From Micromonospora pallida (GTDB lineage Bacteria > Actinomycetota > Actinomycetes > Mycobacteriales > Micromonosporaceae), in contig NZ_FMHW01000002.1 of NCBI RefSeq assembly GCF_900090325.1, positions 1,488,001 to 1,552,000 of the forward strand: DNA of 64,000 bases. Direction: 5' to 3'. Every line of letters starts with the position of its first letter. Position 1 is the first letter of the stretch. The translations under genes were made by a program, and so were the position numbers. Under the pieces are notes generated by a model. It had not been told where the DNA came from. It saw only the letters and a program-made list of their open reading frames with translations, and ran no database searches. Positions 20,769-39,892 of the stretch are shown one piece after another.

Positions 20769-21407
20769 ATGCGGATCCGCCCCATCTCCCCCGAACGGCT
20801 CGTCGTCGCGTTGACCGAGCGGCTGGTCGGGGCCCCGGTCGCCGGACGACTGCGGGTCGCCGTGGACGGTCCACCCGCCGCCGACCCGGACGCCCTGGCC
20901 GGGGCGCTGGTCGACCCGTTGCGCGCGGCGGGCCGGCCGGTGCTGCACGTACGCACCACCGACTTCCTGCGTCCGGCGTCGGTCAGACTCGAACACGGCC
21001 GGACCAACCCCGACTCGTACTACCTGGGCTGGTTCGACGAGGCGGGGCTGCGCCGCGAGGTCCTGGACCCGGCGGGCCCCGACGGCACCGGCCACCTGCT
21101 GCCGTCCCTCTGGGACGCCCGCGCCGACCGGGCCAGCCGCGCCGGGTACGTGCACCTGCCACCCGGCGGTGTGGTCCTGGTCAGCGGCCCGTTGCTGCTC
21201 GGCGGCGGACTGCCCTTCGACGTCACCGTCCACCTGGTGCTCTCGCCGGCCGCGCTGCGCCGCCGGACCGACGCCGCGCAGGCGTGGACGCTGCCCGCCT
21301 TCGCCCGGTACGCCGAGGAGGTCGCCCCGCAGGACTTCGCTGACGTGGTGGTCCGCCTCGACGACCCTCGGCACCCGGCGCTGGTGGAGACCGCACCGAC
21401 CGGATGA
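20769..21407 (+). CDS. Uridine kinase-like protein with a degenerate P-loop
   Basis: The product is 212 aa from ATG 20769; the long open frame upstream is a shadow of the regulator gene. The layout follows actinobacterial uridine kinase-like P-loop proteins: VAVDGPPAADPDALAGAL where G-x-x-x-x-GKT/S is expected, VLHVRTTDFLRPASVRLEHG, YYLGWFDEAGLRREVLDP and late GVVLVSGPLLL. The Walker A Gly-Lys-Ser/Thr is absent (ADPDA), so classical ATP binding is doubtful. It may be catalytically dead, bind something else, or be decaying. A 52-bp tandem duplication begins at its stop codon. Confidence 0.75.
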   Translation: MRIRPISPERLVVALTERLVGAPVAGRLRVAVDGPPAADPDALAGALVDPLRAAGRPVLHVRTTDFLRPASVRLEHGRTNPDSYYLGWFDEAGLRREVLDPAGPDGTGHLLPSLWDARADRASRAGYVHLPPGGVVLVSGPLLLGGGLPFDVTVHLVLSPAALRRRTDAAQAWTLPAFARYAEEVAPQDFADVVVRLDDPRHPALVETAPTG

Positions 21408-21509
21408 GCCACCCGGCGAGCGAACGACCCCGGGCCGCCCGGAGAGCGAACGACGCCGAGCCACCCGGCGAGCGAACGACCCCGGGCCGCCCGGAAGGGG
21501 ACGACGCCG
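21406..21509. repeat. 52-bp tandem duplication at the 3' end of the kinase-like gene
   Basis: Two direct units (21406-21457 and 21458-21509), each beginning GAGCCACCCGGCGAGCGAAC, match except near the end. The first unit overlaps the TGA stop of the kinase-like gene. The duplicated part is non-coding. Confidence 0.75.
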
Positions 21510-21532
21510 GAGCCGGCTGCCGAAAATCCCCG

Positions 21533-23273: not shown

Positions 23274-23702
23274 ATGGCTAACGAACCGAACTCGGTGTTC
23301 GAGTCATCGCTGGACAAGACCAATCTGATCCTCAAGGACATCGAGCAGGCCTACGGCTGGTCGAAGGACCGTCGCAACCAGTCCTTCGCGGCCCTGCGTA
23401 CGGTGCTGCACCTGCTGCGGGACCGGATGCCGGTGCAGGAGTGCGTGGAGTTCTCCGCGCAGTTGCCGGTGCTGGTGCGGGGCGTCTACTTCGACGGCTG
23501 GGACCCGTCGAACGTGCCGGTGAAGCTCAACCGGGACGACTTCCTCTTCGAGGTCCGGCAGGGCTTCCCGTTCGACACCGAGGGCGGCCCGGAACAGGTG
23601 GTACAGGTGGTGCTGGACACTTTGCGCCGGCACGTCACCCAGGGCGAGTGGGACGACGTACGGGCCACCATGCCCAGCGACCTGGCCCGGATGATTCCCT
23701 GA
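23274..23702 (+). CDS. DUF2267 family protein
   Basis: The product is 142 aa from ATG 23274; longer open frame upstream is not supported. It is a compact helical protein: DIEQAYGWSKDRRNQSFAA, then TVLHLLRDRMPVQECVEFSAQLPVLVRG and DDVRATMPSDLA are the DUF2267 signature. Family members are found near stress, cell-envelope and pyridoxamine-oxidase genes but have no proven activity. Inverted repeat family B follows its stop. Confidence 0.9.
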   Translation: MANEPNSVFESSLDKTNLILKDIEQAYGWSKDRRNQSFAALRTVLHLLRDRMPVQECVEFSAQLPVLVRGVYFDGWDPSNVPVKLNRDDFLFEVRQGFPFDTEGGPEQVVQVVLDTLRRHVTQGEWDDVRATMPSDLARMIP

Positions 23703-23758
23703 CCGACCTCGCCCGGCCCCGACGGCCCACCGACCCGGCGGGCCGTCGGGCCACGCCC

Positions 23759-23850
23759 CCCACTCCGTCGATCATGGAGTTGTGGCGCCACTGTTTGTGG
23801 CGGTTGTACGGGTTGGAGCGGTGCCCTAACTCCATGATCGACGGGGTGGG
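23759..23850. repeat. Dispersed inverted repeat family B, copy 1
   Basis: Arms of 23 bp (23759-23781 and 23828-23850) pair with a single mismatch around a 46-nt centre. The left arm contains CGTCGATCATGGAGTTGTGG. A degenerate second copy is at 42835-42925, sharing 27 of the first 29 left-arm bases. Confidence 0.8.
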
Positions 23851-23909
23851 TGAGCGTGACCGGATGTCTGGAACCAGCGGTATGTCGGGGAAGTGCGGCC
23901 TACCGTGTG

Positions 23910-23935
23910 GTTAGAGGAGATCGTGCGCCGGGTAC
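23910..23935 (+). promoter_or_regulatory. Probable SigB/SigF-type promoter of the repeat-peptide/JmjC operon
   Basis: GTTA at 23910-23913 (one off GTTT), 16-nt spacer, GGGTAC at 23930-23935, about 60 nt before the repeat-peptide start. Confidence 0.5.
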
Positions 23936-23995
23936 CACCGGCGGCACGACGAACCCCTGACCCAGGACGGGGCGGCGCATCCCGAGGGAGTACCG

Positions 23996-24238
23996 ATGGC
24001 ACTGAACGACGACGACATCACCACGACCAGCGGCGGCGGCGCGGAGGGTCCGGCTGACGGTGGTGCCACTCCGGGCCAGCAGGACGGTGGCGCCGACGGT
24101 GGCGCGGAGGGACCGGCCGACGGCGGTGCCACTCCGGGCCAGCAGGACGGTGGCGCCGACGGTGGCGCGGAGGGACCGGCCGACGGCGGTGCCACTCCCG
24201 GTCAGCAGGACGGTGGCGCCGACGGCAGCGCCCGGTAA
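23996..24238 (+). CDS. Small acidic peptide of three perfect 21-residue repeats; candidate JmjC substrate
   Basis: The product is 80 aa from ATG 23996, with CGAGGGAG upstream. A short leader (MALNDDDITTTSGGG) is followed by three copies of a 21-residue unit, AEGPADGGATPGQQDGGAD plus GG, ending SAR. The DNA repeats are exact 63-bp steps (24041, 24104, 24167) with a few silent changes. It contains no aromatic residue, Cys, Lys or His, so it should be disordered. The JmjC oxygenase gene starts 6 bp after its stop, so the two are translationally coupled. Leader plus identical repeats plus an adjacent hydroxylase resembles a multi-core RiPP precursor, but this is inference; it could also be a low-complexity tail of no function. 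Confidence 0.78.
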   Translation: MALNDDDITTTSGGGAEGPADGGATPGQQDGGADGGAEGPADGGATPGQQDGGADGGAEGPADGGATPGQQDGGADGSAR

Positions 24239-24244
24239 CCGGCA

Positions 24245-25516
24245 GTGCCGACCATCGACCCGCCGGGTGGCCACGGCCGCCCGGCGGTTCCGTCCGCCGC
24301 TCTCGCGGCGCTCGCCCGGTGTGTCGCCGTCGAGCCGGACAAGTTCGCCGCCGCCCACTGGGGACGCACGCCGCTGCTGTCCCGGGCCGACGAACTGCCC
24401 AACCCGGCCGGCTTCACCGACCTGTTCAGCCCCGCCGACGCCGACGAGCTGCTCAGTCGGCGCGGACTGCGTACCCCGTTCCTGCGGATCGCCCGGGACG
24501 GCCAGCTCGTGCCGGCGGCGCGCTGGACCGGCGGTGGCGGGGCCGGCGCCGAGATCAGTGACCAGGTCCTCGACGAACGGGTCCTGGAGCAGTACGCCAA
24601 CGGGGCCACCCTGGTCCTGCAGGGACTGCACCGCACCTGGCCGGCGCTGATCGACCTCGCCCGCGACCTGGGCCTGGCCGTCGGCCAGCCGTTGCAGGTC
24701 AACGCCTACCTCACCCCGCCGGGCAACCAGGGCTTCGCCACCCACTACGACACCCACGACGTCTTCGTGCTCCAGGTCGACGGCCGTAAGCGTTGGCGGA
24801 TCCACCCCCCGGTGCTCCCCGACCCGCTGGAACGGCAACCGTGGGGCGGGCGCGCCGACGAGGTCGGTGCCACCGCCGAGGGACCCGCCGCGCTGGACGT
24901 GGTGCTCGCCCCCGGCGACGCGCTCTACCTGCCCCGGGGCTGGCTGCACAGCGCTCAGGCGCAGGAATCCAGCTCGCTGCACCTGACCATCGGCGTCCGG
25001 GCGCTCACCCGGTACGCGATCGTCGAGGAACTGCTCGCCCTCGCCGCCGAGGACCCGCGCCTGCGGGCCACCCTCCCGTTCGGCGTGGACCTGGCCGACC
25101 CGGACGCGGTGGAACCCGAGCTGACCGAGACGGTCGAGGCGCTGCGGGACTGGCTGCTGCGCGCCGACCCGACGGCGGTCGCCGGCCGGCTGCGGCAACG
25201 GGCCTGGCCCGCCGCCCGCCCCGCGCCGATCCGTCCGCTCGCCCAGGCCGCCGCGATCCGCGAGCTGACCGCCGACAGCACGGTCACCGTGCGGGCCGGA
25301 CTGCGTTGGCAGCTCGTCCCCGCCGGCGCGGACCGGATCGCCCTGCGCGTCTTCGACCGCACCATCTCGCTGCCGGCGCAGTGCGCCGAAGCGGTACGGG
25401 CACTGCTCACCGGCGCCGTGTCCCGGGTCGGCGACCTGCGGGGCCTCGAGTCCGACGCCGACCGCCTCGTCCTGACCCGCCGCCTCCTCCACGAAGCCAT
25501 CCTCATCCCCGCCTGA
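24245..25516 (+). CDS. JmjC/cupin-4 2-oxoglutarate oxygenase, ribosomal-oxygenase (ROX) type
   Basis: The product is 423 aa from GTG 24245. Residues about 130-260 are the JmjC core: HYDTHDVFVLQVDGRKRWRI gives the first Fe(II) ligands (His-x-Asp) and the Lys region, and LPRGWLHSAQ gives the second His. The C-terminal third is helical and winged-helix-like, as in YcfD, MINA53 and NO66. The family hydroxylates Arg or His side chains of ribosomal proteins. Here it is coupled to a repetitive peptide gene and not to a ribosomal gene, which suggests a dedicated peptide substrate (inference). It reads under the SigB-type promoter at 23910. Confidence 0.9.
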   Translation: MPTIDPPGGHGRPAVPSAALAALARCVAVEPDKFAAAHWGRTPLLSRADELPNPAGFTDLFSPADADELLSRRGLRTPFLRIARDGQLVPAARWTGGGGAGAEISDQVLDERVLEQYANGATLVLQGLHRTWPALIDLARDLGLAVGQPLQVNAYLTPPGNQGFATHYDTHDVFVLQVDGRKRWRIHPPVLPDPLERQPWGGRADEVGATAEGPAALDVVLAPGDALYLPRGWLHSAQAQESSSLHLTIGVRALTRYAIVEELLALAAEDPRLRATLPFGVDLADPDAVEPELTETVEALRDWLLRADPTAVAGRLRQRAWPAARPAPIRPLAQAAAIRELTADSTVTVRAGLRWQLVPAGADRIALRVFDRTISLPAQCAEAVRALLTGAVSRVGDLRGLESDADRLVLTRRLLHEAILIPA

Positions 25517-25653
25517 CCCGCCGCGTCACGCCGCCGCGCAGAAGCGGGGTAGCGGGGTAGCGGTCAGGAGCCGCGCGGGGTGACCGACGTGCTGCCCGTG
25601 TGGTGGGCCCCGCTCAGCCTCGGCGCGACCGGACGCAGAAGCGGGGGCGGGGG

Positions 25654-26319
25654 TCAGAGGCGGAGGGCCAGGAGGAGGGCGGTGGTGAGCAGGCCGGCGA
25701 CCAGGACCACGGTCATCGGGCGAGGGCCGAGCAGCGCGTGCCGCCGGTCGGCGAGCAGCTTGGCCGGCCCCAGCCCGATCAGCGGCCCGAGCAGCGACAC
25801 CACCAACGCGATCACCGGCATCCCGACCGCCAGGTCGCCGCCGTACCGCTCACCCAGTGTCCGGGCGCCGACCCCCACCGCGTACGCCAGCACCGCGCCG
25901 ACCACCCCGCAGAGCGCCAGCAGCGGGTTCACCGATCCGGGTAGGTCACCCGGCTGCCGGGTACGGTCCAGCAGCTCGCGCGCTCCGTCCAGCAGCATCG
26001 TCGGGTCACCCGACGCGTTCCGCGCGGCACCGGGCGGATCACCGAGGCGGCGGGCGCCGGCGCCGAGCCGACCGCGCAGCACCTGCCACAGGTGGGCCGC
26101 CTCCGCGTCCACCCGTTCCACCAGCTCGGTCGCCTCGGCCACCTCCGCCTCGGCCTGGTGGACCTGTTCGGTGGCCTCCCGTACGGCCCGCTCGGCGGCG
26201 GCGCACTGCCGGTCGTGCCAGCCCACCGCCTCGGCACGCTGCGCTGCCGCCTGCGCGGTCAGCTCCGCCAGCCGGCGCAGGTGCGCGGCGTACGACTCAC
26301 TGGTCACCGGTTCGTTCAT
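25654..26319 (-). CDS. Coiled-coil protein with three C-terminal membrane helices
   Basis: The product is 221 aa. ATG 26319 overlaps the FtsK-like stop by 4 bp (ATGA), so they are co-translated. Residues about 10-90 form a long Ala/Glu/Arg coiled-coil (EQVHQAEAEVAEATELVE). Three hydrophobic segments follow near 125-150, 160-182 and 200-221, the last ending the protein. I do not recognise a family. It would put a cytoplasmic coiled coil at the membrane, a plausible anchor for the ATPase upstream. Confidence 0.75.
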   Translation of the reverse strand: MNEPVTSESYAAHLRRLAELTAQAAAQRAEAVGWHDRQCAAAERAVREATEQVHQAEAEVAEATELVERVDAEAAHLWQVLRGRLGAGARRLGDPPGAARNASGDPTMLLDGARELLDRTRQPGDLPGSVNPLLALCGVVGAVLAYAVGVGARTLGERYGGDLAVGMPVIALVVSLLGPLIGLGPAKLLADRRHALLGPRPMTVVLVAGLLTTALLLALRL

Positions 26320-39719: not shown

Positions 39720-39768
39720 GGGTGAACCTTATTCGGAATCGGGGCTTGGCCGACATCCTCGCCTCCGT

Positions 39769-39813
39769 CACTTCTCCGACGCTCACTTCTCCGACGCTCA
39801 CTTCTCCGACGCT
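39769..39813. repeat. 15-bp tandem repeat, three exact copies
   Basis: The unit CACTTCTCCGACGCT occurs three times in a row (39769-39783, 39784-39798, 39799-39813) between the divergent reductase and LLM oxidoreductase genes. It lies where their promoters should be, so copy number could affect expression or protein binding. Confidence 0.85.
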
Positions 39814-39892
39814 CCGGCACACGGTGCACGAGCGAGGCGGTGATCGGTCCGTTCGCCGCCATTGCGTAACCTTGTGCGACTCGTGGTGCGGG

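Follow-up and report, generated by a model that had tools for sequence, protein, structure and literature searches.

A leader and aspartate-repeat peptide encoded beside a ROX-like JmjC oxygenase in Micromonospora pallida and other Actinomycetota

The window analyzed here, a 64,000-nucleotide stretch of Micromonospora pallida DNA, encodes a small peptide with a leader and Asp-containing repeats directly upstream of a ROX-like JmjC oxygenase. The finding is broader than was claimed in the first-pass annotation of this DNA: a recurrent leader and Asp-repeat peptide is found with a ROX-like JmjC enzyme and often with a Suc_Fer-like partner gene. The arrangement is more than chance, as the leader and repeat recur in at least 176 proteins and beside the same enzyme across Actinomycetota. 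Judging from this distribution, peptide and enzyme apparently constitute a widespread actinobacterial peptide-modification system. The best explanation, which we consider reasonably probable, is that the leader recruits the peptide to the JmjC enzyme, which would then oxidize the repeats, with beta-hydroxylation of Asp as the most likely reaction.

The peptide gene and the oxygenase in the window

The peptide gene (23996..24238, forward strand) encodes 80 residues, MALNDDDITTTSGGGA followed by three 21-residue units, and both the open reading frame (ORF) and TRF bear out the short leader and three units originally described. The leader, MALNDDDITT (23996..24025, forward strand), is a motif that recurs in relatives and has a confident fold in a predicted model. 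The repeat core (24044..24232, forward strand) consists, by ORF translation and TRF, of three units of the form EGPADGGATPGQQDGGADG(G/S)A; the third ends in GSA, so the three are not all identical as first reported. Each unit (EGPADGGATPGQQDGGADGGA) contains two Gln, as had been noted, but three Asp rather than two. The DNA repeat is in register (63 bp, 3.0 copies, 95% matches, at 24034-24225 by TRF) but not exact: pairwise, the first 57 bp of the units show 3, 6, and 3 base differences. All of these fall at synonymous third codon positions, indicating that the protein sequence is what is kept. Among 4000 random pairs drawn from 288 units of 19 residues (loci up to L111), third-position differences number 34599, versus 8165 and 7149 at the other two positions.

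The window genome carries one copy of the peptide gene. A phmmer search that scored 7980 candidates identified 176 database proteins with the leader and repeat at E ≤ 0.001, of which 120 are listed. Genera among the matches listed include Micromonospora, Salinispora, Amycolatopsis, Leifsonia, Mycobacterium, and Rhodococcus, and the names attached to those listed are "hypothetical protein" or "BatC protein" (the latter for two of them, by a source). The window peptide and two deep-branching peptides gave no match in Pfam or NCBIfam apart from PF14406, far below its cut-off (E 0.36).

Six base pairs separate the TAA of the peptide gene from the GTG start of the JmjC_2 oxygenase gene (24245..25516, forward strand), confirming the JmjC/ROX-type gene described at that distance downstream. 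The 423-residue product is ROX/NO66-like and matches JmjC_2 (PF08007) at 1.3e-28; its best sequence relatives in the PDB are NO66, MINA, and YcfD. Residues H167, D169, H235, N153, Y155, and K182 are invariant in 47 aligned rows. By analogy with NO66, we take H167, D169, and H235 to be the HxD...H iron triad and N153, Y155, and K182 to be the 2-oxoglutarate (2OG)-binding Asn, Tyr, and Lys. The AlphaFold model of the enzyme has a pLDDT of 93.8. The match to NO66, at about 25-28% identity, extends to the end of the chain and reveals the JmjC plus C-terminal winged-helix architecture; both structural hallmarks of the ROX subgroup, the domain with its metal/2OG residues and the winged helix, are therefore present. 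Given intact Fe/2OG residues and an NO66-like fold to the chain end, an active, ROX-type enzyme is very probable.

A SigB-like promoter, GGTT-N17-GGGTAC, lies at 23909..23935 on the forward strand, 60 nt before the peptide start codon. We scanned the 300 nt upstream of peptides for the pattern G[GT]T-N14-18-GGGTA[CT], which is present in 43/52 upstream regions from Micromonosporaceae (shuffle mean, 0.8); 33 of these 43 have it 54-62 nt ahead of the start codon. Outside this family, the pattern was found in 1/40 and 1/32 regions of two other groups. The SigB-type promoter initially proposed is thus conserved in Micromonosporaceae but not elsewhere. A simple scan found no sigma-70 promoter or terminator, and Rfam gave no match at 23600-25700. 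Just 5' of the promoter is a REP-like palindrome (23767-23842) with arms GTCGATCATGGAGTT; REP-like half-sites occur 19 times forward and 21 times in reverse in the genome, with 0 in a backwards control. Elsewhere, the window contains a 52-bp GC-rich tandem repeat at 21406-21514 (2.1 copies, 26-bp sub-period) and a perfect 15-bp tandem repeat, TCACTTCTCCGACGC, at 39768-39814 (3.1 copies). The window neighbors of the pair encode DUF2267, DUF72, a DksA/TraR zinc-finger protein, and an FtsK/SpoIIIE protein, and no signs of a secondary-metabolite cluster were seen among them.

Pairing of peptide and enzyme across Actinomycetota

A contig scan using one genome per species covered the best 80 of 107 confirmed peptide loci. 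In 77 of these 80, the gene immediately 3' on the same strand encodes a JmjC homologue; these loci span 29 genus labels, a few of which are only family- or order-level names. One locus (L012) was counted as coupled on a weak match because its enzyme region reads N, and in another (L010) the enzyme is split over frames. Two of the three uncoupled loci are at contig ends (L044 and L073), and the third is from Dactylosporangium vinaceum (L075). This species retains both genes about 2.4 Mb apart (L075 and L180), a natural split of the pair. In a family sample of 121 Micromonosporaceae genomes, the JmjC enzyme is detected in 68 at E ≤ 1e-10 and in 65 at more than 300 bits (in pieces in G057). The peptide is present in 66 genomes, including all of these 65, and the remaining one (G113) carries it at a contig end. 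Peptide and enzyme are adjacent in 64/65. These counts strongly support genetic coupling of the leader-repeat peptide to the JmjC oxygenase, and they run counter to the possibility, raised at the outset, that repeat peptides elsewhere might stand without an oxygenase.

Across 396 Actinomycetota genomes, JmjC matches are found in 58 and peptide profile matches in at least 12, a lower bound since up to 16 peptide candidates were scored per genome. The 12 peptide-bearing genomes are the 12 with the strongest JmjC matches. Further, weaker JmjC homologues (about 33-45% identity) are preceded by a divergent leader and Asp-repeat peptide. A short acidic ORF ends near the JmjC start in 17/18 loci of L122-L139, and the 18th (L138) has one starting from GTG; the upstream protein of L122 is acidic and not clearly alike. 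Similarly, an acidic upstream ORF is found in 20/23 loci of L140-L162, the misses being a contig end (L144) and two loci (L150 and L158) in which the JmjC enzyme lies outside the peptide-linked tree groups. These deep-branching peptides have leaders like GLTDEDIETV (LSDEDIETV-like) and cores that are mostly long runs such as DGTDGDATDGTDGDA. The acidic-tail criterion missed L010, L043, L098, L103, L138, and L144, and peptides are visible in all of these but L144, where the contig ends.

By the same criterion, none of 17 further JmjC paralogues (L163-L179) has an acidic upstream ORF. Once His is allowed in the tail, L170 yields a 50-residue His/Asp-rich peptide ending in HYDHDPSDPAHIGHDTDPTDCCDH that precedes its JmjC_2 enzyme. 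At L174, a GTG-started repeat peptide with a unit like IAHSAGADDDSAPCGVQLGKQAA precedes another JmjC_2 enzyme, and other JmjC groups may likewise own repeat peptides. Four additional JmjC loci comprise two at contig ends (L184 and L187), one with no acidic upstream ORF (L185), and one with an unlike acidic ORF (L186). As a control, we considered 460 other long ORFs in the loci: an acidic ORF lies upstream of 25, and 14 of these acidic ORFs have a leader-like motif. All 14 are known peptides, found beside shadow ORFs or orphaned in L075.

In a JmjC tree of 95 rows, built by a quick method with no bootstrap and containing some long branches, every peptide-linked enzyme falls in one of two groups, of 38 rows (SH-aLRT 100) and 41 rows (SH-aLRT 89). 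The other 16 rows lie outside both groups, and none of them has the peptide. Within the groups, L010, L103, and L144 have no scored peptide. The 41-row group also includes L170 and L174, with their other peptides, and L166, a long-branched paralogue that has no peptide and whose genome belongs to the same class. The tree does not show the two peptide-linked groups to form a single clade, and a test that omitted eight long-branched rows does not reject one (p-AU 0.44). Our estimates rest on gene pairing, so this ambiguity leaves them unchanged.

A third gene accompanies the pair in much of the phylum. In the best 80 of 107 loci, a Suc_Fer-like gene directly follows the JmjC gene in 44, corresponding to 44/47 loci outside Micromonosporaceae versus 0/33 within the family. 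It is the 3' gene in 42/51 loci of L112-L162 and in 0/17 of L163-L179. One Suc_Fer-like protein tested matches PF06999 with 61 bits; PF06999 has no match in the window genome, and the window locus does not have the three-gene form. This distribution suggests that the Suc_Fer-like gene is probably ancestral and was lost in Micromonosporaceae. The partner is probably a [2Fe-2S] protein. Aim32 and Apd1 presumably belong to PF06999, the family they would have in common with the partner gene of other lineages but not with any gene of the window genome. Part of one report (PMC8482512) calls Aim32 a 2Fe-2S protein of redox quality control.

Leader, repeat core, and proposed reaction

A permissive leader pattern is present in 36/36 deep-branching peptides and in 104/114 EGPADGG-type peptides, counts that are favored by the prior trimming of the peptides with a similar pattern. 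One read-through chain of peptide and enzyme, which happen to share a frame, was modeled with AlphaFold (61 rows, 34 of them paired). Residues 1-10 have a mean pLDDT of 94, with a strand at 9-12, and residues 16-98, comprising the repeats and linker, are under 50. A terminus of ten residues, separated from the enzyme by 80 disordered ones, would be unlikely to score 94 unless it were packed on the enzyme. We propose that the leader, DDDITT in the window and LSDEDIETV-like in other peptides, docks on the enzyme, probably at its C-terminal winged-helix (RRE-like) domain, and that docking would keep the flexible repeats, rich in Asp, Gly, and Ala, close to the Fe(II)/2-oxoglutarate center. RRE-like folds on JmjC PF08007 proteins are reported in part of a survey (PMC12710340).

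In one subclade (L040, L052, and L119-L122), the peptides have no leader motif or a degenerate one, and the enzymes are shorter by about 10 residues in the C-terminal domain. This co-loss, read by eye and representing one event, is suggestive only. The six rows were read by eye because matching the shortened winged-helix segment by regular expression was not precise enough, leaving 36/136 leader-bearing rows unclassified. All six loci still keep the peptide-JmjC pair, indicating that the leader is not needed everywhere. Six other rows were also scored leader-less: a leader is in fact present in L131, L139, and L148, contig ends truncate L079 and L084, and L066 had been trimmed wrongly.

From the gene pairing, the JmjC oxygenase quite likely has the adjacent peptide as its dedicated substrate. 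It is doubtful, by comparison, that the true substrate is another protein, for example a basic ribosomal protein, with the acidic peptide docking through its leader as an inhibitor, activator, or nucleic-acid mimic. Such a role would be in keeping with the full ROX architecture of the enzyme, with repeats that are acidic and modeled as disordered, and with the other JmjC_2 paralogues, 0/17 of which have such a peptide. However, a docking inhibitor needs no repeats, and the cores keep Asp despite wide drift in sequence and length, as expected of substrates. The same expectation fits paralogues L170 and L174, which have other repeat or Asp-rich peptides upstream.

If the peptide is the substrate, the Fe(II)/2OG center would oxidize several repeat residues, most likely beta-hydroxylating Asp. 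Asp, Gly, and Ala occur in 149/149 cores, followed by Pro (144), Thr (143), Ser (142), and Glu (133); the window locus is counted twice in this set, and three peptides are left out. As Gly and Ala are equally universal, and Pro, Thr, Ser, and Glu nearly so, the universality of Asp is no proof that it is the target. The first-pass annotation had considered both Asp and Gln as hydroxylation sites. This set can be narrowed on the basis of core composition: Gln varies or is rare across cores, but no core counted is without Asp. Among the residues of 30 deep-branching cores, 33% are Asp, compared with 2.3% Pro, 1.3% Gln, 1.1% Arg, 1.1% Glu, and 0.5% His. Within the substrate model, we therefore favor Asp beta-hydroxylation, with about an even chance of its being correct.

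Of 340 units, 246 have His, 63 have Gln, and 25 have Arg immediately before DGGADG. The predominance of these three (334/340) keeps alive a competing explanation in which this variable position is the oxidized site and Asp is merely part of the recognition sequence. The nearest solved relatives of the enzyme are His or Arg hydroxylases, and five of the 36 deep-branching peptides end in HDA. Against oxidation at this position, V, A, or S takes its place in six units, and His, Gln, and Arg are scarce relative to Asp in the deep-branching cores, which leaves it improbable.

The proposed substrate recognition through a leader is also the logic of RiPP biosynthesis. Indeed, a conserved leader, a variable core, and an adjacent modifying enzyme, the features that define a RiPP precursor, are all found here, with the six leader-less loci as the exception. 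In a true RiPP pathway, a house protease would cut off the leader and the oxidized units would emerge, by release or export, as a small natural product. The leader-core organization, the repetition of the core, and the neighboring enzyme all accord with this scheme, and there are precedents for JmjC enzymes in RiPP pathways (BipG, as described in part of PMC12707348). Yet no conserved protease, transporter, or regulator was seen among ORFs of at least 100 residues in flanks of up to 6 kb in the best 80 of 107 loci, and phage and viral-contig relatives are likewise absent; we consider this outcome unlikely, although a protease encoded at a distance would escape this count. As no conserved protease or transporter was seen, the product may instead be a modified intracellular acidic peptide.

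ORF clusters extending over at least ten genus labels in the 80 loci consist of the JmjC gene, the Suc_Fer-like gene, and shadow ORFs of both, the latter judged by eye from position and strand. This clustering, in which only the JmjC and Suc_Fer-like genes are widespread, counts against a classical biosynthetic cluster. A mobile origin was also considered and rejected, with no phage match at 1e-10 and no viral-contig relative by tblastn. Plasmid matches at 1e-20 comprise 49 records, 45 of them from Streptomyces, all below 60% identity.

It is very improbable that the peptide is a stress-induced, acidic, disordered hydrophilin-like protein sharing an operon with an unrelated oxygenase, as the SigB-like promoter in Micromonosporaceae and the hydrophilic low-complexity core might suggest, given the close phylum-wide co-occurrence of the two genes even where they are separated and a recurrent leader that is confidently folded in the read-through model.

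Returning to leader-guided oxidation of the repeat core, the product would be an oxidized acidic repeat peptide, perhaps metal-binding. In Micromonosporaceae, the peptide would be made under the SigB-type stress promoter, and in most other lineages sampled the neighboring Suc_Fer-like, probably [2Fe-2S], protein would join in.

Relation to known systems and implications

The enzyme resembles the ROX oxygenases NO66, MINA53, and YcfD, but here a dedicated gene for a small Asp-rich peptide precedes it. Ribosomal proteins are the substrates of NO66, MINA, and YcfD, and the window enzyme is only about 25-28% identical to NO66. CinX and canucin CanE are peptide Asp beta-hydroxylases. SmaO, mentioned in one report (PMC13097080), is another. 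What they share with our system is the reaction proposed here, Asp beta-hydroxylation of a ribosomal peptide. SmaO, CinX, and CanE belong to larger RiPP pathways, whereas the constant parts here are a repeat peptide and an oxygenase.

BipG from the biphenomycin pathway is likewise a JmjC enzyme, with a substrate precursor peptide whose gene lies close by, as part of one report describes (PMC12707348). In that account, BipG hydroxylates Orn in a multi-enzyme cluster, in contrast to the unit of two or three genes and the Asp-repeat core described here. Part of the JmjC/RRE-like survey (PMC12710340) reports fish and algal JmjC proteins that carry RRE-like folds, with the closest bacterial homologues in RiPP-like contexts; that portion names no Asp-repeat peptide, no such leader motif, and no Suc_Fer-like partner. 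Among the matches listed in the openly licensed PubMed Central literature, we found no description of a peptide-JmjC system, in agreement with the initial statement that no described system has this combination.

A more ambitious version of the proposed reaction, which we regard as speculative and rather unlikely, is that a ROX-derived JmjC enzyme makes a metal-binding (iron or calcium) poly-beta-hydroxyaspartate polymer phylum-wide, with a [2Fe-2S] partner in most lineages and length tuned by repeat number. If true, the polymer would represent a ribosomally made equivalent of beta-hydroxyaspartate siderophores or, alternatively, a tag that senses oxygen or iron.

The side-by-side placement of the two genes in much of the phylum points to a likely enzyme-substrate pair and offers a testable substrate for an uncharacterized group of bacterial JmjC oxygenases. 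Further, the pairing suggests a recognition domain common to ROX enzymes and leader-guided peptide modification, and the Suc_Fer-like partner provides a lead on an equally obscure ferredoxin-like family.
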